NCBI RefSeq assembly: GCF_028583425.1
Contig: NC_072795.1
Span: 9,261,001 to 9,325,000 of the forward strand
Length of the DNA stretch: 64,000 nt
Reading direction: 5' to 3'
DNA from: Eublepharis macularius
Lineage: Eukaryota; Chordata; Lepidosauria; Squamata; Eublepharidae
How positions within the stretch are numbered: position 1 is the first letter of the stretch; every line of letters starts with the position of its first letter. The position numbers were made by a program, and so were the translations under genes. Positions 16,001 through 46,100 of the stretch are shown in pieces. The notes under the pieces were generated by a model, which saw only the letters and a program-made list of their open reading frames with translations, searched no databases and had not been told where the DNA came from.

Positions 16001-18703
16001 GTGGGGTGCAGGCATTGCCACCTGCTCCACACCTGATCTGAGCTGGGTGAAGATGGGGTGGGCATTGCCACCTGCTCTGCTCCTGATGTTGGGGTGATGG
16101 CAAGGTGATAGCAGGGTGAAGGGGAGCAGGCAATGCCACCTGCTCTGCACCTGATCTCAGCTGGGTGAAGGTCGGGGTAGGCATTGCCACCTGCTTTGCT
16201 CCTGATCCCACCTGTGTGATGGCGGGGTGCTGGCATTGCCACTTGCTCTACTCCTGATCTCAGCCTGGTGAAGGGGGGAGAGGGCATTGCTATCTGCTTT
16301 GTTCATGATCTGAACTAGGTGAAAAGGGGGGTATTGCCATCTGCTTCGCTCATGATCTGAACTAGGTGAAGAGGGGGGGGGCATTGCCACCAACTATACT
16401 CCTGATCCCAGCTGGTTGAAGGCAGAGGGTGGGCATTGTCCCCTGCTCTGTGCCTTTACACAGTAAAGGGTGGGGGGACATTGACACCTGCTCTGCACCT
16501 GATCCCAGCTCGGTGAAGGAGGTGGGTGGGCAATGCCGCCTACTTCCCTCCTGATCCTAACTGGGTGAAGGTGAGGGCAGGAATTGCCACTTGCTTCTCT
16601 CCTGATCCCAGCTGGTGAAGATGGAGGGCAGGCGTTGCCACCTGCTCCACTCCTGATCTCAGTTGGTGAAGGTGGGGGATGGGCATTGCTGCCTTCTCTG
16701 CTCCTGATCCCAGCTGTGTGAAGGCAATGGGTGGGAATGCCACCTGCTGCACTCCTCATCCCAGCTGGGTGCAGGGCAGGCAGGCATTGCCACCTGGTCC
16801 GCTCTGAATCATAGTTGCGTGAAGATGGGGGGCAACATATAGCCGCCTGCTCCATGCCTGATTCTGGCCTTGATTTTCCACCCTGTTGCGCTCTCTGGGG
16901 GTCTGGCAGCTTCATCTGGAGGCATACCAGGGTAAGAAGTGAGATTTCTTGAATACACTTAGCCTTTTATATAGTACTCTATCATTTATAACTTAGCAAT
17001 AATGAGATACTCATTTCCTTTTTGCATAATATCATAGCGCTCTTATCCTGAGTCTTCCCTTGTGGTGTGCTCTCTGACTCTCAGATGCTTTGCAAGATTT
17101 TAGGCACAAGCTTTTTCTTGTCTTCTTCCTGGAGGTTCTTTAAGTACTGATGGCAGAAACTGAATATGGAAATTTTTGCATGAAAAGCATATGCTTCTCC
17201 ATGCAGTGATGATTTGTCCCATTTAACCTACTTCCATGGCAGTATAACATTGCAAATATCACAGCTTTGGTGTGGAGGGCAGGAGCAACTTAAGCTCCTT
17301 TTAGAACACATGAACAGGTCTTACATTTGGGAAGCAACCCAGCCATGAACTCTCCCCCATTGTCCATTGGTTGAATGCTATGCTGTAGAAAAAAGTTGTA
17401 AACAACCACATTGGTGGAGAGTGTCCTCAAGTCATAATTGATTTATGGCGACCCTGGTGGGGTTTTCATGGCGAGACACTAAGAGAGCTGATTTGCCATT
17501 GCCTGCCTCTGCAACTCTGGCCTTTGTTGGCCAGAGTTTTTGGCTTCAGTTATCAGAGAGGCAGGCAGGACTAAAAACAAAATATTGCTTTCTGTCCAAG
17601 AGTAGAAAAGCTGTACAACCTGACTGGTCAAATGGGAAGACTGGGTTTTTAAATCTCCTGGAATTGAGAGGGGAGAGATCCAAGCAGGAAGCAAAGAGTG
17701 GTAGGAAATTCCTAGTAGTATAAATCAGATTAATCTGAGGTATAAAAGTCTTTCTTTAAAAAACACTAATGCTAATGCAACAGGTCCTTTATGTTGCTAA
17801 ACAGGGCTGCTCACAGCCCCCAAAGCAAGTATATGTCCTCTTCCAGTCACTAAAGGCCAACTCAAACATTATATAAAAACAGATTACATTACTTGCCCAG
17901 ATGCGTGGACCACTCTCATTACTTGCCTTCTAGTCCCTGCCATGAACCTTTTTGATCATCGACTCATCATCCTTTTGCTAAAAACGTAATGATTAAAAAT
18001 AAAAAACCTGAAAGGATTAATGCTGTGATGACCCAATACTGGGTTCTGTGAGACTCCTTCCAGAGACAGTCTTTAGTTAAGGCGATGAAACTCAATGTTG
18101 TCCTGCTCTTTTGCTCGTTCTTTGCTGAGCCTATCATTGAGGGGAGTAGAGAAATATGAATCAAAATGGAAGCAGCTTAGCAAGAGTGGAGAAGAAGCCA
18201 TCATAGGCTGATACTGCACACGTTGGATATTGCACTTTCAATGCACTTTAACTATAGTTTGGAAGTGGATTTTTTGTTTCACACCCAAAAAATTCAGTTC
18301 CAAATGATCTCTAATGTGGATGGGAAGTGCATTATCCAACGTGTGTGGAATCAGCCATAGTAGCAATGAGAAATGATGACAGGCCATTGGAAGGAAGTCT
18401 TGGTTCACTGATTCATATTCCCCCACCAAATCCAATCTAGATGCTGCACTGGAGGATGCATGTTAGAGTCTGCATGGGAAAGTATTACACACTTTTTGCT
18501 TTGATTTCCTTGCAGGAGCCCGTGTGTGCCCTGGAGAACAGCTGGCGAAGATTGAGGTCTTCATCATCTTCACCAGCCTGCTGAGGGCATTCAGTTTTCA
18601 GTTTCCAGAAGGCATGAAAAAACTCAGCGAAAAACCTATAATAGGGGCAGGAGTGGTTCCTAAACCTTTTAAGCTCTGTGCTGTTCCCCACTGTACAAAT
18701 TAG
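878..18703 (+). CDS. CYP2-family cytochrome P450, gene A (exons 3-9, 5' end outside window)
   Basis: Multi-exon microsomal P450 monooxygenase of family CYP2. The coding sequence is the join of 878-1027, 3802-3962, 8845-9021, 12179-12320, 12946-13133, 15370-15511 and 18516-18703. Lengths and phases match the conserved nine-exon CYP2 plan. Visible motifs in order: helix C WxxxR (TWKEQR), I-helix oxygen-binding AGTETT, K-helix ExxR (EIQR), the PNHF of the PERF region, and the heme loop [10 protein letters not shown] with the thiolate Cys. There is no internal stop and every intron is GT-AG. P450s of this type oxidise lipids and xenobiotics on the ER membrane using electrons from POR; the substrate cannot be read from sequence. 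The exon set resembles the CYP2J/CYP2K-like genes expanded in reptiles, but I cannot fix the subfamily. Exons 1 and 2 should lie just left of the window: by alignment with gene B, exon 2 ends about 120 bp before position 1. Confidence 0.93.
1187..1395. mobile_element. Short TIR repeat (GTTGCCAACCTCCAGG family)
   Basis: Begins with gtcaactccaggtaggg and ends ctggaggttggcaagcc, i.e. inverted ends. The interior (cagcagccattttctccagg type) recurs at 2277-2980, 11901-12108 and 57933-58130. Probably a non-autonomous element; superfamily not assigned. The copy at 57933 is at the matching place in gene B, so this insertion is older than the gene duplication. Confidence 0.55.
1668..2276. other. Gene A intron 3 sequence absent from gene B
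   Basis: Gene A intron 3 is 2774 bp and gene B intron 3 is 837 bp. Alignment stops near 1668 and resumes near 3608 (B about 58405). I recognise no repeat in 1668-2276. Confidence 0.5.
2277..2980. mobile_element. Second GTTGCCAACCTCCAGG-family element, split by a fold-back insertion
   Basis: Outer element with the same inverted ends (gccaacctccagg at left, gagctggcaaac at right). It is interrupted at 2296-2774 by a fold-back element whose target duplication is aacctccaggtg, part of the outer terminal repeat. Confidence 0.55.
2296..2774. mobile_element. Fold-back (near-palindromic) element, 479 bp, with 12-bp target duplication
   Basis: Flanked by aacctccaggtg at 2284-2295 and 2775-2786. The left arm from about 2327 (aatagccaaaagatatagcg) is the reverse complement of the right arm ending at 2774. 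The arms are about 200 nt and meet near 2535-2590. The left end carries about 31 extra nt not present on the right. A long palindrome with a one-sided extension and a retroposition-size duplication resembles Penelope-like pseudo-LTR structures or twin-primed insertions, but no protein is encoded. Confidence 0.65.
3296..3512 (-). mobile_element. tRNA-headed MIR-like (CORE) SINE
   Basis: On the - strand the head reads ggttaagagcagcaggactc (A-box like), followed by gggttcgattccccgc (B-box). Then come a core with gggtaaccttgggtcagtta and an L2/CR1-type tail (tttgtaaagcactctgagtg). This is a pol III SINE, not a functional tRNA gene. Confidence 0.75.
3802..3962 (+). CDS. CYP2 gene A exon 4
   Basis: 161 nt, canonical. 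Acceptor ttgcag, donor gtaagt, ends in phase 0. It encodes [10 protein letters not shown], then [12 protein letters not shown] and [10 protein letters not shown], the usual helix D-E/F region of CYP2 proteins. Reading frame intact. Confidence 0.93.
4545..5289 (+). mobile_element. L2-type LINE, 3' fragment
   Basis: The translation includes [20 protein letters not shown] and [18 protein letters not shown], the C-terminal motif of L2-like LINE ORF2. It is followed by ccaccctgagcccatttg and a tail of (aaatc)n/(aaat)n repeats to about 5289. Gene B lacks it (59320-59340 reads straight through), so it inserted after the duplication or was lost from B. Confidence 0.75.
5385..5899. mobile_element. GCTGATTCC-family MITE, interrupted
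   Basis: Inverted ends (gtgattccgcacatgttgg at left, gtgcggaatcagc at right) with 5-bp duplication taatg/caatg (5380-5384, 5900-5904). Without the inner insertion at 5405-5760 and its duplication it is about 148 bp, the same as the two uninterrupted copies at 18207 and 52391. Gene B (about 59420-59430) shows the empty site ataatgtattg. Confidence 0.75.
5405..5760. mobile_element. Palindromic retroelement-like insertion inside the MITE
   Basis: Flanked by the 11-bp duplication gcacatgttgg (5394-5404, 5761-5771). The arms from about 5442 and back from 5760 are reverse complements (caaaatcaaaaagagtccag) and meet at about 5600. The left side has about 37 extra nt (agttagccgtgttagtctg). Related single-arm copies occur at 6070-6720, 13564-13790, 28870-28990 and 59600-60025. 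The class is uncertain; the architecture parallels that of 2296-2774. Confidence 0.6.
6785..7881 (+). mobile_element. Non-autonomous Helitron with internal tandem repeats, copy 1 (gene A intron 4)
   Basis: Starts TCCTAGTATATAAAAGG after an A and ends TTTGTTACTAG before a T, the A|TC...CTRR|T pattern of Helitrons, with no target duplication. About 6900-7800 is a tandem array of roughly 48-62 bp units (gggatcaggagnagagcaggtggcaatgcc type). The matching copy in gene B is 60103-61063, so the insertion predates the duplication. Open frames through the array are by-products of the repeat. Confidence 0.75.
6900..7800 (+). repeat. Minisatellite array inside Helitron copy 1
   Basis: Around 17 imperfect units of about 48-62 bp. 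Each unit carries a pyrimidine tract ending cacccag, then ctgggatcagg, then gagcaggtggcaatgcc. Unit number differs from the gene B copy, as expected of a variable tandem repeat. Confidence 0.8.
8256..8659. mobile_element. hAT-like MITE (TAGAGATGGGCA family), 404 bp
   Basis: Ends TAGAGATGGG / CCCATCTCTA with perfect 8-bp duplications gtagggac at 8248-8255 and 8660-8667. Gene B at about 61386-61400 has the empty site (agtaagaacagc). The interior has inverted gaacca/tggttc motifs. Confidence 0.88.
8845..9021 (+). CDS. CYP2 gene A exon 5
   Basis: 177 nt, canonical, phase 0 at both ends. Acceptor ctgtag, donor gtaagt. It encodes [20 protein letters not shown] (the F-G loop PGPH signature) and ends in [12 protein letters not shown]. 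About 11 of 59 residues differ from gene B exon 5. Confidence 0.94.
9022..10080. other. Gene A intron 5, unique part
   Basis: Non-coding and aligned with gene B 61751-62250 and 62920-63150. Between these gene B has an extra insertion. No repeat recognised here. Confidence 0.5.
10085..10650 (-). mobile_element. BovB-like (RTE) LINE, 3' fragment
   Basis: - strand. The translation contains [40 protein letters not shown] and [14 protein letters not shown], the C-terminal region of RTE/BovB reverse transcriptase. The 3' end (gttatgtgctgtcaaggtgc) is at the left. The frame is broken several times. Confidence 0.8.
10655..11420 (-). mobile_element. CR1/L2-clade LINE fragment
   Basis: The - strand frame at 10986-11333 reads [29 protein letters not shown] and [17 protein letters not shown], the post-palm segment of jockey/CR1/L2-type reverse transcriptase. 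The rest (toward 10655) matches the downstream 'leukaemia-like' LINE C-terminus only in broken frames. Confidence 0.65.
11901..12108. mobile_element. GTTGCCAACCTCCAGG-family element
   Basis: Begins aacctctaggtggcggctgg and ends gtcagagttggcaatcc. The interior is shared with the copies at 1187 and 57933. Confidence 0.5.
12179..12320 (+). CDS. CYP2 gene A exon 6 (I helix)
   Basis: 142 nt, canonical. Acceptor gacag, donor gtaaga, ends in phase 1. It encodes [19 protein letters not shown] followed by [16 protein letters not shown] is the I-helix groove that activates oxygen, with the conserved acid-Thr pair. The matching exon of gene B would fall beyond 64000. Confidence 0.94.
12321..12945 (+). 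other. Gene A intron 6
   Basis: 625-bp GT-AG intron. No repeat or other gene recognised. Confidence 0.8.
12946..13133 (+). CDS. CYP2 gene A exon 7 (K helix)
   Basis: 188 nt, canonical. Acceptor cctcag, donor gtatca (weaker than the other donors), ends in phase 0. It encodes [20 protein letters not shown], then [11 protein letters not shown] containing the invariant ExxR, and ends in FGFLIPK. Confidence 0.94.
13430..13562 (-). mobile_element. Degraded MIR-like SINE
   Basis: On the - strand it shows a SINE head (agtggttaagtggctgggct) and core (ggccttgggtaagcgactcc). Diverged and incomplete. Confidence 0.5.
13564..13790. repeat. Fragment of the 'aaggtgccactggactc' interspersed repeat
   Basis: Contains ctgcagtagaacagcagaat, tctgaagaagggagctttga and gttggtctcagatgtgtcac, matching the repeats at 6330-6720 and 59600-60020. 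Same family as the inner palindrome at 5405-5760. Confidence 0.5.
14019..14250 (+). mobile_element. tRNA-headed MIR-like SINE
   Basis: + strand head agcatagtagataaagtgtt, B-box-like acgggtttgaatccctg, core tggatgacctttggcccatc and an L2-like tail (gctgctttgagttcc) ending in an A-rich tract. Confidence 0.7.
14319..14379 (+). pseudogene. Vestigial duplicate of CYP2 exon 8
   Basis: A degraded second copy of exon 8 lies about 1 kb upstream of the working one. Read from 14319 it gives [18 protein letters not shown] followed by TAG at 14373-14375. The upstream 35 nt also align with the sequence before the real exon 8 (gagtcaac, then a pyrimidine-rich tract). The splice acceptor has mutated from cttgcag to cttgctg. 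A hAT-like MITE interrupts it at 14380, and little exon sequence is recognisable after that insertion. Residues such as GTxIIPDL are closer to typical CYP2 proteins than those of the working exon (GAILMPDL). It may be an old exon duplication or a relic of another CYP2 gene. Confidence 0.75.
14380..15166. mobile_element. hAT-like MITE (TAGAGATGGGCA family), 787 bp, inserted in the vestigial exon 8
   Basis: Ends CAGAGATGGGCAC / TGCCCATCTCTA. The 8-bp duplication is gtagaaac / gtagaaag (14372-14379, 15167-15174). Longest of the three bounded copies (166, 404, 787 bp). No transposase frame seen. Confidence 0.8.
15370..15511 (+). CDS. CYP2 gene A exon 8
   Basis: 142 nt, canonical. Acceptor cttgcag, donor gtaaag, ends in phase 1. 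It encodes [18 protein letters not shown], the meander/PERF segment [12 protein letters not shown], and the first part of the heme loop, AFLLFGAG. Confidence 0.94.
15549..16980 (-). mobile_element. Non-autonomous Helitron with tandem repeats, copy 2 (gene A intron 8)
   Basis: Reverse orientation. Its 3' terminus CTAG is at 15549-15552 next to an A on the + strand (T after CTAG on its own strand). The left part contains the diagnostic aataaagtctgttatgggaa. The 5' end (ccttttatatagtactct) lies near 16980 but is diverged and its first bases are unclear. A minisatellite array of about 1.2 kb fills the interior. Confidence 0.68.
16981..18201. other. Gene A intron 8, remaining part
   Basis: Mostly unrecognised. 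Only 17415-17525 stands out: the inverted tail of a 5S-type SINE (agtcataattgatttatggcgaccctggtgg region). Confidence 0.5.
18207..18355. mobile_element. GCTGATTCC-family MITE, complete 149 bp
   Basis: Inverted ends GCTGATACTGCACACG / CGTGTGTGGAATCAGC with perfect 5-bp duplications catag (18202-18206, 18356-18360). The interior has ggaagtggattttttgtttc, shared with 52391-52539. Confidence 0.8.
18516..18703 (+). CDS. CYP2 gene A exon 9 (heme-binding Cys, stop)
   Basis: 188 nt including the TAG stop at 18701-18703. Acceptor cttgcag. The first residues complete the heme loop with [10 protein letters not shown], whose Cys is the fifth heme ligand. The rest is the L helix and C-terminal sheet, ending in [14 protein letters not shown]. 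Length and position of the stop are normal for CYP2 proteins. Confidence 0.94.
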
Positions 18704-27300: not shown

Positions 27301-28307
27301 GGGAACCATTTGCCTGGCTGCCAGCTACAGCCATGCTTTATGGCTCACCCCCGCGGCAGTAGGGGCTCACCCAGACAGGTCAAGGCGCAAGTCATGGGTG
27401 ACCCCAGGGCTTGACCTGTACTGCTAGTTAACTAGATCCCTTTGCATATTGACAGTTTATGTTGTAATGAATAAAGTGACCCAATTTTATACCCAAGCTT
27501 TGTGTCTGCATTTTATTTCGACTGGGGGAGGGAATTTGGCCCTCCCAGCCTGCAGCACCACAGCTTGGACAGGAGCCATGTTTGCAGCCCCGGAAGAAGG
27601 AAAGGCAGCTGGGTTTTTTCCCAGGAATCCGGGAGCTTTGCTGGGAAGGCAGGGCCAAAGGCATAATAGACTGCTCCATCCTTCCCCAGCACATGGTAGT
27701 CTTTGTTGCTTGGCCCACCCACCCTCCCTTTAGCAATGCAGGATTATCTGGTTGCTATTTATCAGGGCCAGGTAAGAATTCTTCCCCTCTCCCAACTGGC
27801 ATAAGGGGAGATGTTTTTTGCCTACCTTGCACTGAGGGATGAAGTCGTGGTAATTGGTACGGTGGAGTTGTAAATGCTTGGCCACTGCAGGTTACAATGG
27901 GAAAATGAGTTGGCCAGTGACCCCCTTGGCATATCCCCATTGGTGGGGAAATGGGGTCTGTCAGGAGCGACTGGACGGCTGTACGGTAGCCAGCTGTGAG
28001 GGCAGACTGCCGCATGGCTCCCCTGTACAAGTAAGGCCCTCCTGCTGTACGGTGAGGTGCTGGAGGCTTGGAGGAAGAACCATTTTCCTGGCTGCCGAGT
28101 ATAGCCATACTTTTGTACGGCTCACCTCTGGGGAAGTGGGGGCTTGCCCAGACAGGTCAACATGGAGGTCATGCGTGACCCCAGGGCTTGACCTGTAGTT
28201 AGCTAGATCCCTTGCCGTATTGACAGTTTATGTTCTAATTAATAAAGTGGCCCAATTTTATACCCAAGATTTGTGTCTGCCTTTTATTTCGACTGGGGGG
28301 GGGGGCG
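27296..28307. mobile_element. Direct-repeat-bounded retroelement remnant (DIRS/LTR-like)
   Basis: Two direct repeats of about 240 bp (27296-27536 and 28068-28307), 772 bp apart. Both contain gtgaccccagggcttgacct, attgacagtttatgtt, AATAAAG and ttttatttcgactgggg. A 150-bp piece between them (27857-28010) recurs inverted at 28640-28797. Split direct repeats plus inverted pieces recall DIRS/Ngaro elements, but no tyrosine recombinase is visible. A truncated LTR element is the alternative. Confidence 0.4.
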
Positions 28308-28639
28308 CAATGAGCATTGGGACCAACATTTGTTCTCATTACATTCTCTTTGCAACCTGGAATGAAGCAAAAGCTACTTTTAGCTTCAGGTAAACACCCT
28401 TAGATGGACTGATCTGGAATAAGAGAAACAAAATGAGAAATAGTAGTCCTAGTGTGAACCCTGATGCCGTGAGAAGCAAAGCAGCAGAGAACAGAATCCA
28501 AAAGGGACTTAAATTTTATCCCTGTCCGGCGTTGCTTTCTACGCTTTAAACAACAAATGTAAAACTCAATTAGGATGCAATGGTCTGATAACATTTACTT
28601 GACTTCAAAGAGGAATAATGTATTGGGACCTCTGTGGGG

Positions 28640-28797
28640 AGTTGTGGATTAGCTGGCTACCATCCAGCCGTCCAGTCGCTCCTGACAGACCCCATTTCCC
28701 CACCAATGGGGATATGCCAAGGGGGTCACTGGCCAACTCATTTTCCCATTGTAACCTGCAGTGGCCAAGCATTTACAACTCTACCGTACCAATTGTT
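28640..28797. repeat. Inverted copy of 27857-28010
   Basis: The stretch ccgtccagtcgctcctgaca...gcatttacaactctaccgta is the reverse complement of the segment inside the direct-repeat element. Confidence 0.85.
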
Positions 28798-32816: not shown

Positions 32817-33230
32817 TGTCAGACTGTGGCTAAATAAGGTACTCTCTGCAAGATTCCCTTTAGAAGCAAGAATAAGTCCAATGTCTGGCAAAGGAAGCTT
32901 TATTGCAGAAAAGGTCCATTATAGTCCACTGTCCTGAATAGGAGACTCAGGATGGTACATGATCATTGTTACCAATGAAGAGCAAGCATAGGATACAGAG
33001 TAACAATACCCATCTGGAACAGCCTCCCCCCACAGTTCTCAAAACAACATCTTGCAGTCCTGGGAAGCTGCTCTCCTTCAAGGCCAATGCCTGGTGGAAC
33101 GGTGTTAGACAAAACAGTCCTCTGGTGGGAATGCTGCCTGGGAACTGGTGCACCTGAGGAGAAAACACTTAAACACTAAAAGCATTAGAAAATGGAGTCA
33201 GTATAGTTAAGATATATACTGGACCTGACA
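32817..33230 (-). repeat. 3' LTR of the Ty3/Gypsy element
   Basis: 414 bp, TGTCAG...CTGACA on either strand. Appears base-for-base identical to 39289-39702 (constant offset 6472). Confidence 0.93.
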
Positions 33231-33244
33231 TTTCTGCCCCCCTT
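33231..33244 (-). promoter_or_regulatory. Polypurine tract (plus-strand primer)
   Basis: On the element strand the tract reads AAGGGGGGCAGAAA, directly against the first base of the 3' LTR and overlapping the last bases of the pol stop codon. Confidence 0.85.
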
Positions 33245-36200
33245 AAAATAGATCCCCCCCTGGTTTATATGGGTAGCGAGTATGAAAAGCGTTGGTCAAT
33301 CTAGGAGCATGAACATGTGCAGAGTTCACCCATTCATCGTAACCAGAATCAAAGTCCTTCCACCTAATGAGGTAAAAAAGCTGATTTCTCTTGATTTTAG
33401 AGTCCAAAATTTGTTGTACCTCATAGTGTATTTGGTCGTCAATTAAAGTTGGAATGGGTGGAGCTTTGATATGCCATTTGTTGTCGGTGGGAGCTCTCTT
33501 CAAAAGGCTGACATGGAACGTATCATGCACATGGCGAAGGTTCTTGGGCAATGTTACAGCGACAGTCACTTTATTTATTACCTTGCGCACAGGAAAAGGT
33601 CCTAAGAATTTCAAAGCGAGTTTGCGGCTTGTCTGAGCTAGCTTTAGGTTCTTTGTGGAAATATACACATGATCTCCTGGTTGTAATTCCCATGCGGCCA
33701 CACGATGGCGATCTGCGTACTTTTTGTAATCCAGTTTGGCTTTTTCAAGGTGTCTCTTAATGATAGTCCATTGCTGCACCGCCTCCCCCCACCATGAGGA
33801 TACATCTGGCAATTTAGAGGAATGGAGAGGGGGTGCGTCCAAAGGGAAGGGATTGAAGTGAGTCCCATATACAATTTTGAAGGGGGCTTCTCCCGTTGAA
33901 GCGTGTACACTGTTGTTATAGGAGAATTCAGCTAGAGGGAGAAGGTCCACCCAGTTATCTTGTTGAAAATTGATGTAGCAACGAAGGAACTGTTCTAATA
34001 TCTGATTTGTTTTTTCGGATTGCCCGTCGGTTTGTGGGTGGTGGCTTGAACTGATACCTTGTTCAATATTCAACATTTTCAAAAGCTCCCGCCAGAAGTT
34101 GGCAACGAACTGTCCGCCGCGATCCGAAATCACCTTGGACGGAAAAGAATGTAATTTTACGATGTGTTTTAGAAACAGATCCGCTAGTTTTCGAGCGGAG
34201 GGTATAGTAGTACAGGGGATAAAATGGGCTTGTTTGGAGAACAGATCTACCACAACTAAAATACAATTATGTCCTTTTGAAAGAGGCAGATCAGTGATAA
34301 AGTCCATGGAGATTACTTCCCAGGGCCTGTTCGGTGTTTCCAATGGTTGCAGGAGACCCGGAGGTTTCCCTTTTCTGGTTTTAGCGCTGAGGCAAACAGG
34401 GCAGGAACTAACGTATTGGGAAATGTCTTTGCGCATGCCCGGCCACCAGAATTGTCTTTGAACTAGGTGTAAAGTTTTCAGATACCCATAATGTCCAGCA
34501 GTGGGAGCATCATGACAGCGCTGCAAGATTTCCAACTTAAGGCTGTCCGGGACATAAAACTTGCTCCCAGCTAGCCAATCCCCCTGTGGGGATTGGGTTA
34601 GTTTGTTTCGCGGAGCTTTATTCCCCTCCTTCTCCACTTCAGTTTTAAGTTTCGATTTCCATTCTTGGTCGGCCGGGAGGGGCAGCTTAGCGCGGCTGCG
34701 AGTAGTCACCACGCCCCCAAGTTGCTTAGGCGAGAAGACCGTGTCGACAGTCTCCGCCCGCTTGCTCTTATGTTGGGGCATGCGCGATAGGGCGTCCGCC
34801 AAAAAGTTAGTTTTGCCCGGGAGATAATTGAGGGTGAAGTTGAATTTGGAAAAGAATTCTGCCCACCGCAATTGCTTGGCATTCAGTCTGCGGGGGCTTC
34901 GGAGGGCCTCCAAATTTTTATGATCTGTCCAGACCTCGAAAGGGTATCTCGCTCCCTCCAGCCAATGCCTCCAGTTAGTGAGAGCTGCTTTCACTGCAAA
35001 GGCCTCCTTCTCCCACACATTCCAATTCCTTTCTGCCTCTGAGAACTTTCTAGACAGGAATGCACAAGGCCGCAATTTCCCATCCTCCCCCTTCTGTAGC
35101 AAAACCCCCCCTATCGCCGTATCGCTGGCGTCGACCTGTACTATGAAGGGGGACTGTTCGTTGGGGTGGGAGAGGATGGGTTCCGTTACAAATTGCTTTT
35201 TTAGGCATTCGAAGGCCGTTTGGCAATCGGGGGTCCATTGTAGTTTAGCGGAGGGTTTTTTGGCTTGGTCCCCTTTCTCTTTGGTTTTCAGCAACTCTGT
35301 TAAGGGGAGTGTGATTTGGGCAAAATTTGCTATGAAGTCTCTATAGAAGTTGGCAAAACCCAGGAAGGATTGCAGTTCTTTGCGGGTGGTGGGTGTTTGC
35401 CAAGTCTGGATCGCCTGTATTTTGGCTGGATCCATTTTCAACCCCTCTTGTGAGATGCAATACCCAAGGTAAGTGAGTTCGGTTTTATGGAATTCACATT
35501 TGGACAATTTGATGGGCAGTTTATTCTTCATCAAGGTGGCCAGGACCTTTTGTACCATTTGAACATGTTCTTCCTCGGTGTCGGAATAAATTAAAACATC
35601 ATCAAGGTACACTACCACCCCTTTGTATAGAAATTCATGTAGAACTTCATTTATCATGGACATGAATACAGACGGGGCTCCCGTCAATCCAAAAGGCATA
35701 ACTAAGTATTCATATTGTCCGAGGGGCGTATTAAACGCGGTTTTCCACTCATCCCCTGCCTTGATACGAACGTGGAAGTAAGCATCTTTTAAATCTAATT
35801 TCGTAAAGATCTTACCTTGGGCCACGACGTTGAGAAGGTCTCGGATGAGCGGTATAGGATAGGCGTTGTTGGTGGACACTGCATTTAGTCCTCGGAAGTC
35901 CGTGCACAGTCTGAGCCCCCCATCCTTCTTTTTCACGAAGAGAACTGGAGCGGCGTGGGAGCTAGAGGCTGGGCGGATGAACCCTCGTTGGAGGTTGGTG
36001 TCGATGAATTTCCGGAGCTCCTCACGTTCATGGAGACTCATGGGATAGAGTCGTCCTTTAGGCAAGGAGGCTCCGGGTAAAATTTCCACCGCACAGTCCG
36101 TTCTTCGGTGCGGGGGTAGAGTATCAGCTTCCTCCTCCGAGAAAGCATTCAGAAAAGGCCAGTACGGTTCAGGTATTTGGTTGACTTCTTCTTGGGTGAG

Positions 36201-36713
36201 GAGGGCCTTTTCTTTATAAGTTGGGTCTTCGCCCCAGTTTTGATTCCAACGGTGATTTTTACAGTTGGCATGATTGAAGGTAATACATCCTTGAGCCCAG
36301 TCTATGTAGGGATTGTGATCACATAGCCATTTGCTGCCTAGAATTAACGGGTACTTGGCAGTAGAGCTGATGACAAAGGACCTCTTTTCCCAATGTTGTC
36401 CCATGCCTGTGATCACTGGGATGGTTTCAGTCGTGACCGGATTCATGTTGGTACCATCCATTTGTTCAAAAATTACTGGATTTTGTAAATCCCGAGTTGG
36501 TAAAACCAGTCCATTGACTAGAGCTGGGGCTATGATGTCTCTTGAGCAACCCGAGTCAATAAGAGCTTGCACCCGAATGTGCATTTTTCTCTCTGGGTTG
36601 ATTAAAGTCACTGGCATGAATAAAATGGACCCAGGTGGCCGGTTCCGTGCAGGGACGGGCTTGGGGCGGATCTGTCGTTTGGGCCCTTTTACGACAGATC
36701 CATCTCGTTTCCC
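33243..36713 (-). CDS. Pol polyprotein (protease, RT, RNase H, integrase, chromodomain)
   Basis: Expressed as Gag-Pol by -1 frameshift at 36707-36713. The frame itself is open upstream to 36986 but has no need of its own start. Seen in order: aspartic protease (ALIDSGCS, about 50 residues after the slip site); reverse transcriptase with YLDD near 35600; RNase H with VDAS, the KEAFAV Glu and WTDHKNLEAL; integrase zinc finger (H-H-C-C, about 34380-34510) and catalytic D, D, E (MDFITD, SDRGGQF, GQSEKTN, about 34305 to 34012); the GPF module (FLGPFPVRKV); and a C-terminal chromodomain at about 33285-33430 with Tyr, Trp and Phe in the aromatic-cage positions (YEVQQIL, IRWKDF). No stop interrupts it. 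The stop codon lies 12 bp before the 3' LTR. The chromodomain suggests integration guided by histone marks; that is family knowledge, not tested here. Confidence 0.93.
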   Translation of the reverse strand, partial: GKRDGSVVKGPKRQIRPKPVPARNRPPGSILFMPVTLINPERKMHIRVQALIDSGCSRDIIAPALVNGLVLPTRDLQNPVIFEQMDGTNMNPVTTETIPVITGMGQHWEKRSFVISSTAKYPLILGSKWLCDHNPYIDWAQGCITFNHANCKNHRWNQNWGEDPTYKEKALLTQEEVNQIPEPYWPFLNAFSEEEADTLPPHRRTDCAVEILPGASLPKGRLYPMSLHEREELRKFIDTNLQRGFIRPASSSHAAPVLFVKKKDGGLRLCTDFRGLNAVSTNNAYPIPLIRDLLNVVAQGKIFTKLDLKDAYFHVRIKAGDEWKTAFNTPLGQYEYLVMPFGLTGAPSVFMSMINEVLHEFLYKGVVVYLDDVLIYSDTEEEHVQMVQKVLATLMKNKLPIKLSKCEFHKTELTYLGYCISQEGLKMDPAKIQAIQTWQTPTTRKELQSFLGFANFYRDFIANFAQITLPLTELLKTKEKGDQAKKPSAKLQWTPDCQTAFECLKKQFVTEPILSHPNEQSPFIVQVDASDTAIGGVLLQKGEDGKLRPCAFLSRKFSEAERNWNVWEKEAFAVKAALTNWRHWLEGARYPFEVWTDHKNLEALRSPRRLNAKQLRWAEFFSKFNFTLNYLPGKTNFLADALSRMPQHKSKRAETVDTVFSPKQLGGVVTTRSRAKLPLPADQEWKSKLKTEVEKEGNKAPRNKLTQSPQGDWLAGSKFYVPDSLKLEILQRCHDAPTAGHYGYLKTLHLVQRQFWWPGMRKDISQYVSSCPVCLSAKTRKGKPPGLLQPLETPNRPWEVISMDFITDLPLSKGHNCILVVVDLFSKQAHFIPCTTIPSARKLADLFLKHIVKLHSFPSKVISDRGGQFVANFWRELLKMLNIEQGISSSHHPQTDGQSEKTNQILEQFLRCYINFQQDNWVDLLPLAEFSYNNSVHASTGEAPFKIVYGTHFNPFPLDAPPLHSSKLPDVSSWWGEAVQQWTIIKRHLEKAKLDYKKYADRHRVAAWELQPGDHVYISTKNLKLAQTSRKLALKFLGPFPVRKVINKVTVAVTLPKNLRHVHDTFHVSLLKRAPTDNKWHIKAPPIPTLIDDQIHYEVQQILDSKIKRNQLFYLIRWKDFDSGYDEWVNSAHVHAPRLTNAFHTRYPYKPGGDLF
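36667..36713 (-). promoter_or_regulatory. Programmed -1 ribosomal frameshift signal (gag-pol)
   Basis: Slippery heptamer G GGA AAC (36713-36707) lies in the gag zero frame (codons TCG GGA AAC). After a 5-nt spacer comes a perfect 11-bp stem, GGATCTGTCGT / ACGACAGATCC, around a 12-nt loop. The loop contains GGGC, which could pair with GCCC 8 nt past the stem and make an H-type pseudoknot. The gag stop TAA falls in the loop side, 8 codons after the slip site. GGGAAAC is the same heptamer used by the domesticated Sushi-derived gene PEG10. Confidence 0.92.
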
Positions 36714-39277
36714 GACTGGGGACTTTCTGGATTGACTTCTGCAGATGGGGAAGCGGGATCGTATTCCATAACTTCTTCCGCTTCCAGCCCTCTTTCTGAG
36801 GCTGGCCTTTGGGAAGCGCCGCGGCCTCTGTTTGCTCGTGGAGCTGGAGTCGGGCGTTGGAGCGCAGGGAACGGAGCAAGGGTTGGACGCCGTAATTGGA
36901 GCGGAGGTCTTTGCACAGGCCGGTAGGGGCATTGTGCTGCAAAGTGACCAGCCTGTCCGCATTGCAAACACAGCCCTTGTTGCCATCTAGCATCTCTCGC
37001 TCCACGGGTGGCGTAACCAGCTCCCCGAGCTCCCTTTTGTAAGGTCAATGGTTTTCTTTGTCCCGTTTGTTGTTGTTGCTCAACCAAACGGACTTCCAAA
37101 ATGCGATTTTCCACTTCGCAAACAAGTTGAATCCAACCTAACAGCGTAGGGGGATTGTCTTGCATGAGGGCTCTGTCCAAAAGTCTCGGATTAAGTCCTT
37201 GTTTGAACAGAATAATTTTTGTGGACTCCTCACACCTGGGGCACTTGGCAGCCAATTGTCGGAATTTCGTGATATAGTCTCTCGCTGCCATGTTGCCCTG
37301 CTTAATGGCCTGCAATTCTGTTCGGGCCCTGGTTTCCTCTAAGGGATCTTCATATTGTGCTCTAATAGCATCCACCAACCCCTGGAGAGTATCGAGTTCT
37401 GGGGCCCCGATATTATATAGTCCTACGTACCAGTTCGCTGCTTTCCCTTGTAAACGGGAGCCGAGGTGTTCAATTTGGCTGGCCTCGCTGCCGAAGAGGT
37501 GTCCCCACCGGTTGAAGAATTGCACGACTTGCACTAGAAAAAAGCCCAGTTTGGAGGGATCCCCATCAAAAGTGGCGTCTAGTTTCACCCAACCCATTGG
37601 GAGGTCTTGCCTCGGAGCCGGGGCTGGGTAGAAGTCCGCCGGAAGCCTCAATGGCACTTGAGGTATGAGGGGACCCGGTTGTGCTGGCGGTGGCCTCACC
37701 GGTTGAGCCGGGGGTGCCGGTCTCGGCTGGGCTGGTGGCGGTGCTCTCGGCAGGGCTGGTGGCAAGGCCGGAGGTGCTGGCCGTAGCGGTTGAGGTGCTG
37801 GCGGTTGAGGTTGATGTGGCGAAGTAGTAATCGGCCGCTGAGGGGTGGGTTGGTGGGGTCGCAGTGGTGTAGGTCCCATCGGTTGGGTCGGAGGCGGTCT
37901 TACGGGTTGTTCCAGTGGCAAACGTATCGGCTGCAGCGGCGGGGTTAGTTGTGGTCGAAGCGGAAGGGGCCGCAGCGGCGAAGGCCGAATGGGTGGAAGG
38001 CCGCGCGGGCTTGCCCCTCCGGGCGTTGTTGTTCTGGGAAGCGTCGGCTGGCCTTTTGGCGCTGGTAGACCATCTCCCGGAGGTTGCCCGACGGGAACAG
38101 TTTCGCGCGGTTGACCAGGGGCTCCCTCCCCTGATGGAGCCACGGGTGCTCCCGCTTGGTCCGGCCGGACCGTTGTCGGGGAAGTATGGGGGGGTATCAC
38201 CGGTGTATCACTTGGCTTTTCCTCCCCTTCCGTAGGCCTCTCAACGGGGGTCTCGTCTGGCGGCACATCCCCTCCCGTGATAGGAGGTTCGATGGGAGTC
38301 TCACCGGATGGCACAACCGGGTGGTCCCTTCTCGGTGGAGTTTCCCGCTGAGGGGGAAGTTCCTTGGGTTGTTCTCCCGATTCGCCAGGATAGGTGCCCC
38401 CCCCGCCGGTAGGCGACGACCGCTGCTGGACTTCCTCCATCGGATAGGAGATGACACTTTGAAGGGTAGCTATCTGTATCGCCATCTCTTCAGGAGACAG
38501 TCTTTCCCCTGCCCCCATTGAGGAAATTAAATGGATGGCGTGAGCCAAGCTTTCTTCCATATCCATCAGCTTAGCTTCTAATTGTTGTATACGACTTGGC
38601 CCTGGTTGTTCGCTCAGGGAACCTTCATTCGCTGTACTCACCGGGGAGAAAGGGCCCCACGGAGGAGGGTCCCCTTGAACTATTCGCGACCTCGCGGCTA
38701 GAATTCCCTTGGCCATACCCGTCACGGCCGAGATGCTGGTATCTACCGCATAGGTGCGACCTCGTATCTGCTCCCAACTTGGTTCAGGGACTTCCGTTGG
38801 CTCCTTCCACGGGGCAAGTTCGGAATAATCCCAACTCAGGGCGCCTCGGCGAGACGTGTCCCCCTCCATCTGCTCAAACGTCCTGTTCCAATATCGCCAT
38901 GGTTGGCTGCTATCTAGTTCCGGGACGGTTTCTAGGCTTCGGCGCCCGTCCATCGAGACTCGTGGATGGAGTCCACCTGCCCGGCGCTCTCTGGTTTCTC
39001 GGGGTCTGGCTCCCCACTCCGACGGGGTGGGCACCGAGATCAAGGGGAGAGCGGTTGCTTTCGGCCTTGCCCCGAGATTGCTTTCGGTCTCGTTTCGAGT
39101 ACTGAAGTCGATGAGAGGCAGGGTAGAAGTGGAAGCTCCGGTTCCGTTCCCGGTTGCTCCCAGCTCCTGGGAGTCTTGGGTTTGCACCGGTTGATTGTCG
39201 GGAGACGCATACGGATCAAACAAAGGATCCCTGTCCGGGACAACCTTGGATTCCGCTGGGCCCGACGCAGACATCAT
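36689..39277 (-). CDS. Gag polyprotein
   Basis: 862 residues from ATG 39277 (an adjacent in-frame ATG follows at 39274) to TAA at 36691-36689. Layout: an N-terminal region with a predicted coiled coil (IQQLEAKLMDMEESLAHA, about residue 230-260); a long Pro-rich linker (about 290-560, PPTQPMGP, RPAPPALPPALPRAPPP); the Ty3/PEG10-type capsid (about 570-720, TFDGDPSKLGFFLVQV, QGKAANWYVGLY, MAARDYITKFRQLAAKCP); and one CCHC knuckle (CLQCGQAGHFAAQC, about 765-780). It is longer than many Ty3 Gags because of the Pro-rich segment. The 5' leader is only 11 nt, so the start codon overlaps the primer site. Frame intact. Confidence 0.9.
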   Translation of the reverse strand: MMSASGPAESKVVPDRDPLFDPYASPDNQPVQTQDSQELGATGNGTGASTSTLPLIDFSTRNETESNLGARPKATALPLISVPTPSEWGARPRETRERRAGGLHPRVSMDGRRSLETVPELDSSQPWRYWNRTFEQMEGDTSRRGALSWDYSELAPWKEPTEVPEPSWEQIRGRTYAVDTSISAVTGMAKGILAARSRIVQGDPPPWGPFSPVSTANEGSLSEQPGPSRIQQLEAKLMDMEESLAHAIHLISSMGAGERLSPEEMAIQIATLQSVISYPMEEVQQRSSPTGGGGTYPGESGEQPKELPPQRETPPRRDHPVVPSGETPIEPPITGGDVPPDETPVERPTEGEEKPSDTPVIPPHTSPTTVRPDQAGAPVAPSGEGAPGQPRETVPVGQPPGDGLPAPKGQPTLPRTTTPGGASPRGLPPIRPSPLRPLPLRPQLTPPLQPIRLPLEQPVRPPPTQPMGPTPLRPHQPTPQRPITTSPHQPQPPAPQPLRPAPPALPPALPRAPPPAQPRPAPPAQPVRPPPAQPGPLIPQVPLRLPADFYPAPAPRQDLPMGWVKLDATFDGDPSKLGFFLVQVVQFFNRWGHLFGSEASQIEHLGSRLQGKAANWYVGLYNIGAPELDTLQGLVDAIRAQYEDPLEETRARTELQAIKQGNMAARDYITKFRQLAAKCPRCEESTKIILFKQGLNPRLLDRALMQDNPPTLLGWIQLVCEVENRILEVRLVEQQQQTGQRKPLTLQKGARGAGYATRGARDARWQQGLCLQCGQAGHFAAQCPYRPVQRPPLQLRRPTLAPFPALQRPTPAPRANRGRGASQRPASERGLEAEEVMEYDPASPSAEVNPESPQSGNEMDLS

Positions 39278-39286
39278 TGGTAACAA
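39274..39286 (-). promoter_or_regulatory. Self-complementary primer-binding site (Tf1/Sushi type)
   Basis: Two nucleotides after the 5' LTR the element strand reads TTGTTACCAATGA (39286-39274). There is no TGG start as expected for a tRNA primer. The exact 13-nt complement TCATTGGTAACAA occurs once in each LTR on the same strand (39450-39438 in the 5' LTR). A transcript starting there could fold back and prime its own reverse transcription. The site also contains both candidate gag ATGs (39277 and 39274). Confidence 0.82.
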
Positions 39287-39288
39287 AA

Positions 39289-39702
39289 TGTCAGACTGTG
39301 GCTAAATAAGGTACTCTCTGCAAGATTCCCTTTAGAAGCAAGAATAAGTCCAATGTCTGGCAAAGGAAGCTTTATTGCAGAAAAGGTCCATTATAGTCCA
39401 CTGTCCTGAATAGGAGACTCAGGATGGTACATGATCATTGTTACCAATGAAGAGCAAGCATAGGATACAGAGTAACAATACCCATCTGGAACAGCCTCCC
39501 CCCACAGTTCTCAAAACAACATCTTGCAGTCCTGGGAAGCTGCTCTCCTTCAAGGCCAATGCCTGGTGGAACGGTGTTAGACAAAACAGTCCTCTGGTGG
39601 GAATGCTGCCTGGGAACTGGTGCACCTGAGGAGAAAACACTTAAACACTAAAAGCATTAGAAAATGGAGTCAGTATAGTTAAGATATATACTGGACCTGA
39701 CA
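39289..39702 (-). repeat. 5' LTR of the Ty3/Gypsy element
   Basis: 414 bp. On the element strand the presumed RNA start (primer complement) is at LTR offset 253 and AATAAA at offset 327-332 (39376-39371). The order U3, R, U5 is therefore coherent. A weak TATTGT lies about 25-30 nt before the presumed start. Confidence 0.92.
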
Positions 39703-40580
39703 GACTGTGGCTAAATAAGGTACTCTCTGCAAGATTCCCTTTAGAAGCAAGAATAAGTCCAATGTCTGGCAAAGGAAGCTTTATTGCAGAAAAGGTCCAT
39801 TATAGTCCACTGTCCTGAATAGGAGACTCAGGATGGTACATGATCATTGTTACCAATGAAGAGCAAGCATAGGATACAGAGTAACAATACCCATCTGGAA
39901 CAGCCTCCCCCCACAGTTCTCAAAACAACATCTTGCAGTCCTGGGAAGCTGCTCTCCTTCAAGGCCTGACATTTCTCCTGACATTTCTGCCCCCCTTAAA
40001 ATAGATCCCCCCCTGGTTTATATGGGTAGCGAGTATGAAAAGCTTTGGTCAATCTAGGAGCATGAACATGTGCAGAGTTCACCCATTCATCGTAACCAGA
40101 ATCAAAGTCCTTCCATCTAATGAGGTAAAAAAGCTGATTTCTCTTGATTTTAGAGTCCAAAATTTGTTGTACCTCATAGTGTATTTGGTCGTCAATTAAA
40201 GTTGGAATGGGTGGAGCTTTGATATGCCATTTGTTGTCGGTGGGAGCTCTCTTCAAAAGGCTGACATGGAACGTATCATGCACATGGCGAAGGTTCTTGG
40301 GCAATGTTACAGCGACAGTCACTTTATTTATTACCTTGCGCACAGGAAAAGGTCCTAAGAATTTCAAAGCGAGTTTGCGGCTTGTCTGAGCTAGCTGTAG
40401 GTTCTTTGTGGAAATATACACATGATCTCCTGGTTGTAATTCCCATGCGGCCACACGATGGCGATCTGCGTACTTTTTGTAATCCAGTTTGGCTTTTTCA
40501 AGGTGTCTCTTAATGATAGTCCATTGCTGCACCGCCTCCCCCCACCATGAGGATACATCTGGCAATTTAGAGGAATGGGG
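39703..40580 (-). mobile_element. Truncated second copy of the same Ty3/Gypsy element (3' LTR remnant plus pol 3' end)
   Basis: 39703-39966 is an LTR lacking its outer TGTCA and the part equivalent to LTR1 33087-33223. A duplicated cctgacatttct follows (39965-39990), then the polypurine tract and the last about 195 codons of pol (stop at 39996). Homology stops at about 40579. Two residue differences from the intact copy are visible (NLQLAQ versus NLKLAQ; RLTKAFH versus RLTNAFH), so it is a distinct insertion or an older duplicate. Confidence 0.88.
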
Positions 40581-41203
40581 AGTCGCCTTGAAGAGCCAGC
40601 AGCAGAGCAGCAACAGATGTGGCTGCCTAAGGCAGTCCAGGCAGCAGCTAGGTTGTTAGGGGTGGGGCTAGGAGGTGGAGGCTGGGATTGGTGAAGGGAT
40701 AAAAGGGGAGTCCCCGCTACAAGCAGGGTGGAGAGTAATGAGTCAGATGAGAAGTGTGGAGAGATGAGGAGGAGACAGGAGTACCTTGAGAAGGCAGGGA
40801 CTGCAGTTAAAGGGGCAGTGGCTGACCCCAAACCCAGGGGCGCTACCAACCCAGAGGGGAGAGCGTCACAATCATATTCAAAACTTCTAGCCTGGATCGA
40901 ATTCTGTGGCAACACAAATACTATCTTACTCTCAATGCAACTAAAGATGCATAAAAGTCACCGCTCAGCCTCTGAATGTTTGTAGTTGTTTTCTGGATCA
41001 TTCCTGTTACCCCAACCCCACAGCTGGTCTACTCTTGCTGAAATCACTTCATCTCTTCTGGGTTTCCCACAGACTGCAGCAGGCTTCTAATGCATTGGCT
41101 CCTTCCTTCTCCTTCATGATTTTTACTCGGAATAGAAAAGGTATACCTTTGCTCTCCATCTTTAATCTATGTGACCGTGGTTGAGGCTGTGGCACCCTGG
41201 ACT
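40581..41203. other. Unclassified repeat-like sequence right of the truncated retroelement
   Basis: Contains a TATA-like ggataaaagg near 40697, followed by a purine-rich leader-like stretch and ending agcgtcaca near 40870. This looks like part of an LTR of another family. From 40871 to 41203 nothing recognised. Confidence 0.3.
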
Positions 41204-43187: not shown

Positions 43188-46100
43188 GTATGTAATTCTA
43201 TTTTATTTATTTAATCAATTCATTTTATCACCTCCCTTGTTTGTTGACAGTCAAGGGCAAACTACAGTATTTGTAAAAGCAATGCAATAAAGAGCATTAT
43301 ATTACACAAAATACGCAATGCTACAAGACTGGATTGCACTATTAGGCAGTAAACGATGCCATCAAGAGGAATTATGCCACTAGAGAAGAAGAAATGAAGA
43401 ACAATATAATATACAGTAAACAATGCATACAGTGGATAATATAGAGTAAATGATACATTGGTGGAGGGAATGTTATTTTTTTAAAGAACCAGACAATTCA
43501 AGCTACAGCCCTCTGTGTGTGTGTTATTCGCTGCCAAGTTGATGCAGACTTAGGGTGTCCCTATGGATGAAACACGTCCTATCATTAACAAACTTACTCA
43601 GATCTTGTAAACTGGAGGGTTTGGCTTCTTGTACTGAATCAAGCCATCTTGTTTTAGGTCTTCCTCTTTTCCTGCTGCCTTCCACTTTTCCCAGCATTAT
43701 TGACTTTTCCAGGGAACCTTGTCTTCTCATGATGTGACCAAAATACGATAGCTTCAGTCTTGTCAATTTGGCTTCCAGGGAGAACACAAGCTTGATTTGA
43801 TCTAGAACCCACTTATTTGTCTTTTTGGCTGTCCGGGGTATCCAGAAAATTCTCCTCCATCACTGCAGACCGAGGCGATGTTCATCAGAAAGGCTGAGGT
43901 CTTAGATGGAATTGTGCTTCCCATGTGTGATGGAATTGACCAACTCAGTGAATAATCTATGGTTTAAACTGGGCTCAACATCATTACTGGACAGGCAAGT
44001 TAATTAAGCTGCAAAAAATTCTTTCTGCCATTTTAATTTAAACTGGAGGATGGCTCTCTGCTTTGACCTGGACGATGTGGTAAGAAAAGTGAACCATATA
44101 TAAACTCCCAGGAGTCTTTGGCTCCATCATTCTGTAGTAAGAACAAAGATCTGAAGTCATGTTTTACCATAAGGGGTTCCATGCCATTGCACTCACAAAG
44201 ATCTGCACCAAGACCTGCGTTCAGCACGCATCGTTAAAGATCTGGTTATTATTCTAGGATCGGGGGATAAAAACAGCCACTTCTGCGCTGCTTATCTTAT
44301 CTTATTTGTCTTCTAGCAAGCTTCACGTTAATTGGCTTGTTGGGAAGAGCTTATCTAAAAGTGATACAGACACTCCCTTTGAGAGGATGTATTAGGAAGA
44401 GAACAGTTAAGTAGATTTCATTATTTGGGATGTAGATAATTCTGCACTGCCTTGCTCCATATGCTAGAAGCATTCAGAAGACATCAGCAAAATGCCATTT
44501 CCTTCTTTTCTGCTCCATCTATCTTCCATCGCAATTTCCTTCTTTCCTGCTATACCTGTCTTTAAAAATCTGTTGATTCCAGTTGCTGCAAACCTTTAGA
44601 GATGACATTGGAGATGCTGGACCAGGCCCATATGAAAACAGGTTAATGCAGGACAGTAATAGCATCATAACAGAAAAAATACAATGGGCTCTAGAAAGGG
44701 GAGGGCAGGCTGGTGGGTATTACAACCTCCTCTGTGCCTGATCCAGGCCAGGTGAAAGGGGGATGGGCATTGCCACCTGCTCTGTGTCCGATCCCGGCTG
44801 GGTGAAGGTGGGTATTGATGCCAGCACCACACATGATCCTGGTCAGGCGAAGTGGGGATGGGCATTGCCTCCTGTTTTGCACCTCACCCCGGGTAAGTGA
44901 AGAGGGAGGGCATTGCCACCTTCTCCATTCCTGATCCCTGCCGGGTGAATGCAGGGATAGGGATTACCTCCTGCTCCACACCTGATCCTGGCTGGGCAAA
45001 GAGGAGGCAGGCAGTACCTCCTACCCCACACCTGTTCCCAGGTGGGTGAAGGGGGGCAGGCATTGCCTCCTGGCCAGGTGAAGGTGGTAGAGAATTGCCA
45101 CCTGCTCTGCAGCTGATCCTGGCCAGGTGAAGGCAGGAGCAGGCATTACCACCTGCTCTGCGTCTGATCCCAGGTGAGTGAAGGCAGGAGGGCATTGCCA
45201 CCTGCTCCGCTCCTGATCCTGGCTGGATGAAGGGATCCAGACAGCATCCAGAGCATTATGATAGAAATATGCTTCAACTCAAACTTTAGAAAACACTTGA
45301 ACAAATCTGGTAGTATTTTATCTGAAATGTGATACAATAATAAACTTCTCAAGATCTCTGGCTGAGTTGAGCAGACAGCCGAGAGGACTTCTTTTCATTA
45401 AAGGGGTCACAGTTACCTACAAGTGGAGAATCTTTATTATCTCCTTTCAATTTGCACAGACTTCCTCAAATGCATTTATTCACAATTTCAATGAATGCAA
45501 AATGTCCGGGGGGGGGGGGCGGGGTGCAGTTGAGGGGGTCACAATCAGGATTTCAAAAATACTTGCTGTTTGTCTGCTAATGACAGATAAACCCCTTCCT
45601 GCGCTCTTCATCCCCTGCCCTTGCTCAATGGAGAGGTAGGGGAAAATAATGAAGGGATGACATCACCACATTGAGCAACTCTCTAGGAATTCTCCCAATC
45701 TCTATGCTCTTTACCATAAAAGACTGCGGAAATTACAGTGTTGCTTGATATTTTGACATCACTTCCCAGACTCCACCCTGAAGTGATGTTGCCATACCAT
45801 TTGACTATTCTTCTCCCCATGCCCCACTCCCAAAGCTCTGGCTATTGCAAGAAGTAGGCCTGATAAACCTAGTGAACAAGCTGCATTCTGACTGAACCAT
45901 GGAAGTCCAGATACCCTCGGCTCACTGATACTTCCATTAACTGGCTATACCTTTTCTTACATACTGCTAATTTTTTATCTTCTCTCTCAGCATCAGGGGA
46001 AGTTCAACAGTTTGTTTTCATGTCAAAACTCACATGGTGCAGCTTCTGAGGAAGCTGATTTAGTTTTTGAAAAATTTTTATGCACAATCGATAGTGGCTT

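Follow-up and report, generated by a model that had tools for sequence, protein, structure and literature searches.

What primes reverse transcription in an element without a recognizable tRNA-type primer site is the question raised by the retrotransposon at 32817-39702 (minus strand) of the DNA analysed here, a window of 64,000 nucleotides (nt) from Eublepharis macularius (NC_072795.1, positions 9,261,001 to 9,325,000). The element is a chromodomain Ty3/gypsy long terminal repeat (LTR) retrotransposon of the Tf1/sushi type. We predict, with a probability of about 0.9, that it carries the self-priming apparatus of such elements: an 11-nt complement, compensated pairing and a conserved leader fold are observed, from which the RNA start, the cleavage of the primer and priming itself would follow.

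The initial annotation of this locus described a 13-nt segment 2 nt past the 5' LTR, its exact complement at LTR offset 253-265 and an AATAAA at offset 327, and all three were found as described. The segment, TTGTTACCAATGA, occupies 39286-39274 (minus strand), separated by TT (39288-39287) from the LTR end at 39289, and its exact complement lies inside the LTR on the same strand (39450-39438). No complement longer than these 13 nt exists between the LTR and either the first 20 or the first 40 nt after it; none of 5000 dinucleotide shuffles gave 13 nt in either test (largest, 12). Across the host genome (2.24 Gb, 72 contigs) the 13-mer occurs in 2761 + 2734 copies, against 43 + 33 for a reversed control. 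The annotation also stated that there is no tRNA primer site. In agreement, TGG (the complement of the tRNA CCA end), with which the primer-binding site (PBS) of a tRNA-primed Ty3/gypsy element starts near the LTR, is absent from the first 20 nt after the LTR, a search for the motif that did not compare the host tRNAs themselves. The features concerned are:

39289-39702, minus strand: 5' LTR, 414 nt
39287-39288, minus strand: TT spacer from the CA end of the LTR to the PBS, 2 nt, read from the sequence
39276-39286, minus strand: PBS TTGTTACCAAT, 11 nt
39274-39275, minus strand: positions 12 and 13 (G, A), a copy-specific extension of the complement to 13 nt, with a near-constant C elsewhere
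39438-39448, minus strand: putative self-primer ATTGGTAACAA, predicted first 11 nt of the RNA, with A39448 as predicted +1 and start of R
39371-39376, minus strand: AATAAA polyadenylation signal, LTR offset 327, downstream of the predicted RNA start

Comparison with other genomic copies, which fall into three subfamilies (A, that of the window, B and C), shortens this complement from the 13 nt first proposed to 11. For a first set (A1) of the window and 39 loci, 40 loci were taken from 100 listed places of the 13-mer, most of which have a partner at a distance of 6-7 kb; the loci were picked through the LTR, without regard to the PBS, and one (L137) was dropped for having no PBS. The 11 nt of TTGTTACCAAT are fully paired in 38 of the 40 rows (37 of the 39 loci, plus the window), and the outermost pair is lost in the other two. 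A genome-wide search for A-type junctions, which fixed the exact LTR end, the PBS and a gag anchor and is informative for position 12 only, gave C at position 12 in 728 + 722 junctions and another base in 3 + 4 (1450 of 1457 with C); the seven exceptions are six G, the window included, and one T. Thus, the 13-nt match is exceptional, the unit that is kept is 11 nt long, and a 13-nt duplex as the functional unit was rejected. From this length we read the RNA start as probably A39448, rather than about 39450 as the annotation had it; the latter would be possible only if some RNAs began 1-2 nt upstream. The proposed fusion of the primer site with the gag start stood in part: in the window copy G12 adds an ATG (39277-39275) within the 13-mer, a feature partly private to that copy. 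The usual ATG of subfamily A lies one base past the PBS; in B and C the homologous ATG comes about 9 to 13 nt past it (distances from spacer lengths, homology by alignment).

The annotation suggested looking for compensatory changes between the two segments among family members, and these were found, along with single uncompensated changes. A search with a second gag type gave 324 + 323 junctions and 0 control matches; from 100 of these junctions listed we assembled a variant-enriched set of 40 loci, most with the PBS TTGTTACGAAT or TTGTTACAAAT. Rows with the PBS TTGTTACCAAT and an assigned primer have a primer in ATTGG. Among the 29 loci with TTGTTACGAAT, 22 have the exactly complementary primer ATTCGTAACAA, so that in subfamily C the pair at primer nucleotide 4 has changed on both sides, from G-C to C-G. 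The other seven have ATTCATAACAA (four loci, three of them a single leader, as L198 and L232 repeat L197), ATTTGTAACAA (two) or a difference in the last base (one); ATTCATAACAA and ATTTGTAACAA are products of CpG decay of ATTCGTAACAA. The five loci with PBS TTGTTACAAAT carry an ATTCG primer in four cases and ATTTG, which restores pairing, in one. The primer is ATTGG in all six remaining loci, two of which match exactly, one matches exactly with the TT spacer lost, and three have a single uncompensated change in the PBS. Overall, 26 of the 40 match fully; the other 14 show a single mismatch, which lies at the CpG in 10. Genome-wide, 31 junctions have a base other than A at PBS position 6, and with the anchors used no further primer family was found among them; 27 owe the difference to a single additional T where LTR and PBS meet (L297, L301-L323, L325, L326 and one place without a locus).

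The leader is predicted to fold around the primer-PBS duplex, with strong covariation. An alignment (A2) of 44 of 102 distinct leaders from the three subfamilies yielded a consensus with an 11-bp primer-PBS helix, a 4-bp helix, a 7-bp hairpin and inner stems, the first three of which are:

39438-39448 with 39276-39286, minus strand: helix 1, primer-PBS, 99.6% of cells paired
39288-39291 (ACAT) with 39429-39432 (ATGT), minus strand: helix 2, 97.7% of cells paired, no pair changed on both sides
39405-39423, minus strand: helix 3, leader hairpin, 7-bp stem with four of seven pairs changed on both sides

Helix 2 is the PBS-upstream duplex, which joins the end of U5 to the site just downstream of the primer. 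Pairing holds in 98.1% of the cells of A2 and in 34-46% when the structure is slid along the alignment. Cells changed on both sides number 70, compared with 21.5 in shuffles, none of 500 of which reached as many. The window leader by itself folds with a z of -2.77 (2 of 200 shuffles as good). A check for the three duplexes of the Tf1 "pretzel" found the primer-PBS and PBS-upstream duplexes kept and the PBS-downstream one weak; the candidate for the latter, CAGACATT:GATGTCTG, is good in the window, weak against shuffles and, by inspection, not retained across the A1 and A2 copies, and was rejected. The compensated pairing and the conserved fold support the Tf1-like self-priming that was first suggested for this locus.

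Several observations weigh against self-priming. Single changes go uncompensated in the 14 of 40 variant-enriched loci noted above, 10 of them at CpG, and in L299 and L300, in which base 6 of the PBS has changed; the PBS is lost altogether in L324. Old copies decay without compensation, and only one pair of the primer helix changes on both sides, probably through one ancestral event followed by CpG decay. Two of the five structure measures are unremarkable: 8 pairs have a double change against 6.8 in shuffles (138 of 500 as high), and there are 37 pair types against 33.5 (17 of 500 as high). The PBS-downstream and PBS-upstream duplexes are jointly matched by 65 of 2000 shuffles.

Two other explanations of the complement were set against self-priming. 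That a host tRNA, or an internal fragment of one, is the primer, with the LTR complement incidental or serving another step such as translation control, is most improbable. Some copia elements use tRNA halves as primers (PMC6317226), and our own test was confined to TGG; an ordinary tRNA 3' end does not fit a sequence without TGG in those 20 nt, however, and an incidental complement is very unlikely given 0 of 5000 shuffles and the compensated change of subfamily C. It is also very unlikely, to a degree only marginally less extreme, that something else primes and that pairing of the segments in the RNA serves packaging, dimerisation or the control of gag translation. The duplex does touch or neighbour the gag start codon in the subfamily of the window, whereas in B and C it is still 11 bp long with the homologous ATG well beyond it. 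The duplex also ends exactly where DNA synthesis is expected to begin, leaving the TT spacer. Retroviral integrases trim 2 nt from the DNA ends; given such trimming and the TT spacer, the complement stops exactly at the expected start of minus-strand DNA. The spacer is mirrored by an AA before the 3' LTR, and the predicted DNA termini are AATGTCAG...CTGACATT.

We thus favour self-priming, by the following route. Transcription would begin at A39448, inside TC|ATTGG, and the 5' end of the RNA would fold back onto the PBS. RNase H would cut after nucleotide 11, and the released 11-mer would prime minus-strand DNA, in which the TT spacer is copied first. Later, the plus strand would copy the RNA primer up to the cap, gain a C and a few untemplated bases, and transfer. 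Copying up to the cap and the addition would leave a near-constant C and hypervariable bases just past the PBS.

Such an edge is present in subfamilies B and C, at a site that in the window corresponds to the gag start codon:

39270-39275, minus strand: position of the spacer that is hypervariable in subfamilies B and C

The table of B and C junctions holds 90 distinct junctions after removal of identical ones, 89 with an assigned primer; L170-L173 were dropped (wrong side fetched), and from L174-L188 only matches to the B/C pattern joined it. Position 12 is C in all 89. The 57 junctions of subfamily B have A at position 13 in 45 cases and 32 distinct spacers, and the 32 of subfamily C have C and A at positions 12 and 13 throughout, with 14 distinct spacers. 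In B, seven pairs of loci have identical leaders from the primer to the LTR end (about 160 nt), and the spacer differs in all seven, in one (L239/L261) by the length of a T run only. These pairs are not sister copies, since divergence in gag is about 1-6% across 2.2-2.3 kb, with one pair at 7% across 1.3 kb. For an estimate of rate we used six disjoint pairs chosen for identical or nearly identical leaders (L239/L261 was left out for its short gag alignment, and L252 rather than L175 served as the partner of L257). Five of the six show a difference within bases 13-16, whereas the higher of the gag and leader rates predicts 0.65, an expectation that may be low, gag being a coding yardstick. We also compared the window with L331, a relative that likewise has G12: there is no difference over the 210 nt before CTGACATT, and there are nine over the next 1533 nt, including an A-to-C change precisely at position 13; differences are more numerous farther upstream in the LTR and include an indel. 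A separate observation concerns L163/L169 (G000 C1 24207240-24210240), where what comes after LTR, PBS and C is unlike the usual gag start; more LTR matches lie near 24213994 and 24220557, perhaps in tandem.

The near-constant C and the hypervariable bases may be the mark of copying of a capped primer with untemplated addition. The reverse transcriptase of Tf1 is reported to add non-templated bases at 3' ends (PMC3185545), and that of MMLV (Moloney murine leukemia virus) favours C (PMC3877366). On this tentative reading, to which we give nearly an even chance, the PBS 3' edge would preserve a fossil trace of the capped primer: every time round, the plus strand would copy the 11-nt primer, place a C opposite the cap and often add untemplated bases before transfer, with G12 resulting when the RNA began one base upstream, as in the window, and the next bases would mutate much faster than their surroundings. 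Six of the seven A-type exceptions have a G, complementary to the C that immediately precedes A39448 in the LTR; G12 could be a templated copy of an RNA begun one base earlier.

Relaxed selection, recombination between lineages or slippage in T runs could instead have produced the edge, and we regard this as a serious possibility at somewhat less than even odds. It would bear on the edge only. The seven pairs with identical leaders are not sister copies, their gag sequences being a few percent apart, some spacers differ in T-run length alone (e.g., L239/L261), and U5 has another variable spot 12 nt before the spacer. In subfamily A, the C stands in front of the start codon, which could be why it is retained. 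G12 is common to the window, L331 and L325 and so seems to be inherited in the lineage of the window, which also counts against capped-primer copying, in that rewriting to C is then not obligatory. Such processes do not readily account, however, for five differing pairs against 0.65 expected, even with so low a yardstick, for the constancy of the adjoining position 12 in all 89 B and C junctions, or for the predominance of G, the base that an RNA begun one position upstream would template, among the A-type exceptions.

We found no prior description of this edge pattern in the open-access literature, in searching aimed at this point that was limited; it is the newer observation, since self-priming, well supported here, is already known for the Tf1/sushi group. 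If capped-primer copying is correct, the PBS edge would allow the RNA starts and second-strand transfer errors of self-primed elements to be inferred from assemblies alone; for Tf1 and the other elements of this kind a simple prediction follows.

Tf1 of Schizosaccharomyces pombe uses the first 11 bases of its RNA as primer, cut between bases 11 and 12 (PMC7175516), and the gecko element shares with it the 11-nt primer/PBS complement (PMC7175516) and a folded leader with duplexes adjacent to the PBS (PMC10085805). Unlike the gecko element, in which the counterpart is weak and not kept across copies, the Tf1 pretzel has a PBS-downstream duplex. Tf1 also has a single open reading frame and no CCHC motif, whereas the gecko element has a candidate -1 frameshift and a CCHC Gag (PMC10085805). 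Both traits are usual in the Tf1/sushi group outside fission yeast (PMC10085805). Self-priming has been reported as a shared trait of Tf1/sushi elements, those of vertebrates included (PMC6317226, PMC10085805), and the V-clade elements Sushi-ichi and Amn are likewise chromodomain Ty3/gypsy elements with predicted self-priming (PMC6317226, PMC10085805, citing Butler et al. 2001). To these reports we add the compensation across copies and the PBS-edge pattern. Self-priming is here put to the test on a large number of copies from a single family and genome, with a fixed 11-nt extent of pairing in the copies compared and the compensated change of one subfamily. In the related Tcn1 clade of chromoviruses most members have no tRNA-type PBS and are predicted to self-prime (PMC6317226); one described member, SM-Tcn1, showed no evidence of tRNA priming or self-priming (PMC2864245).

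The element is probably a new chromovirus member of the Tf1/sushi group, as its gene content and its PBS, complementary to the predicted 5' end of its own RNA, both indicate. Integrase follows RNase H and a chromodomain is present in pol, the Ty3/gypsy order expected for Tf1/sushi chromoviruses, and Ty3 is the top sequence match of pol among solved structures. One protein scan of pol against viral_contigs gave no match; a 15-mer search of the same collection matched 120 stretches, which were not used as evidence. The remaining parts of the element are:

32817-33230, minus strand: 3' LTR, 414 nt, no difference from the 5' LTR
33231-33242, minus strand: polypurine tract GGGGGGCAGAAA, adjoining the 3' LTR, read from the sequence
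33243-36986, minus strand: pol frame, with reverse transcriptase, RNase H, integrase, SH3_Tf2-1 domain and chromodomain
36668-36713, minus strand: candidate -1 frameshift signal, GGGAAAC at 36713, short spacer, stem of at least 10 bp, gag stop in the loop
36689-39277, minus strand: gag frame, with ATG at 39277 and 39274, capsid domains and CCHC knuckle
39464-39477, minus strand: U3 block TGTTACTCTGTATC, 29 nt before A39448 (30 in other lineages), candidate core promoter

The identity of the two LTRs suggests a young insertion. The gag frame contains the CCHC knuckle CLQCGQAGHFAAQC, and the Pfam domains of pol are RVT_1, RT_RNaseH, Integrase_H2C2, rve, SH3_Tf2-1 and Chromo. The two frames are offset by -1, and GGGAAAC with its stem is a candidate -1 frameshift site between them. 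A U3-R-U5 order of the LTR is possible, since the AATAAA lies downstream of the predicted RNA start, and the U3 block changes little across the window and 40 loci. In the leader, upstream ATGs at 39391-39438 open two short frames ahead of gag.

No target-site duplication was found in the 10 nt on either side of the full element, and ARAGORN and Rfam (gathering cut-offs) found nothing in the window. Adjoining the 5' LTR in head-to-tail orientation is a second, truncated element of the same family (39698-40613), which comprises the end of pol, a polypurine tract and a shortened LTR; the junction between the two LTRs has lost a few bases. Elsewhere in the window are inverted repeats at 5441-5762 and 27852-28794, with 144-nt arms that are 100% and 98% complementary, and, in four places and both orientations, imperfect tandem repeats that are related to one another and have a period of about 50 nt (6943-7771, 15614-16809, 44689-45232 and 60179-60990).

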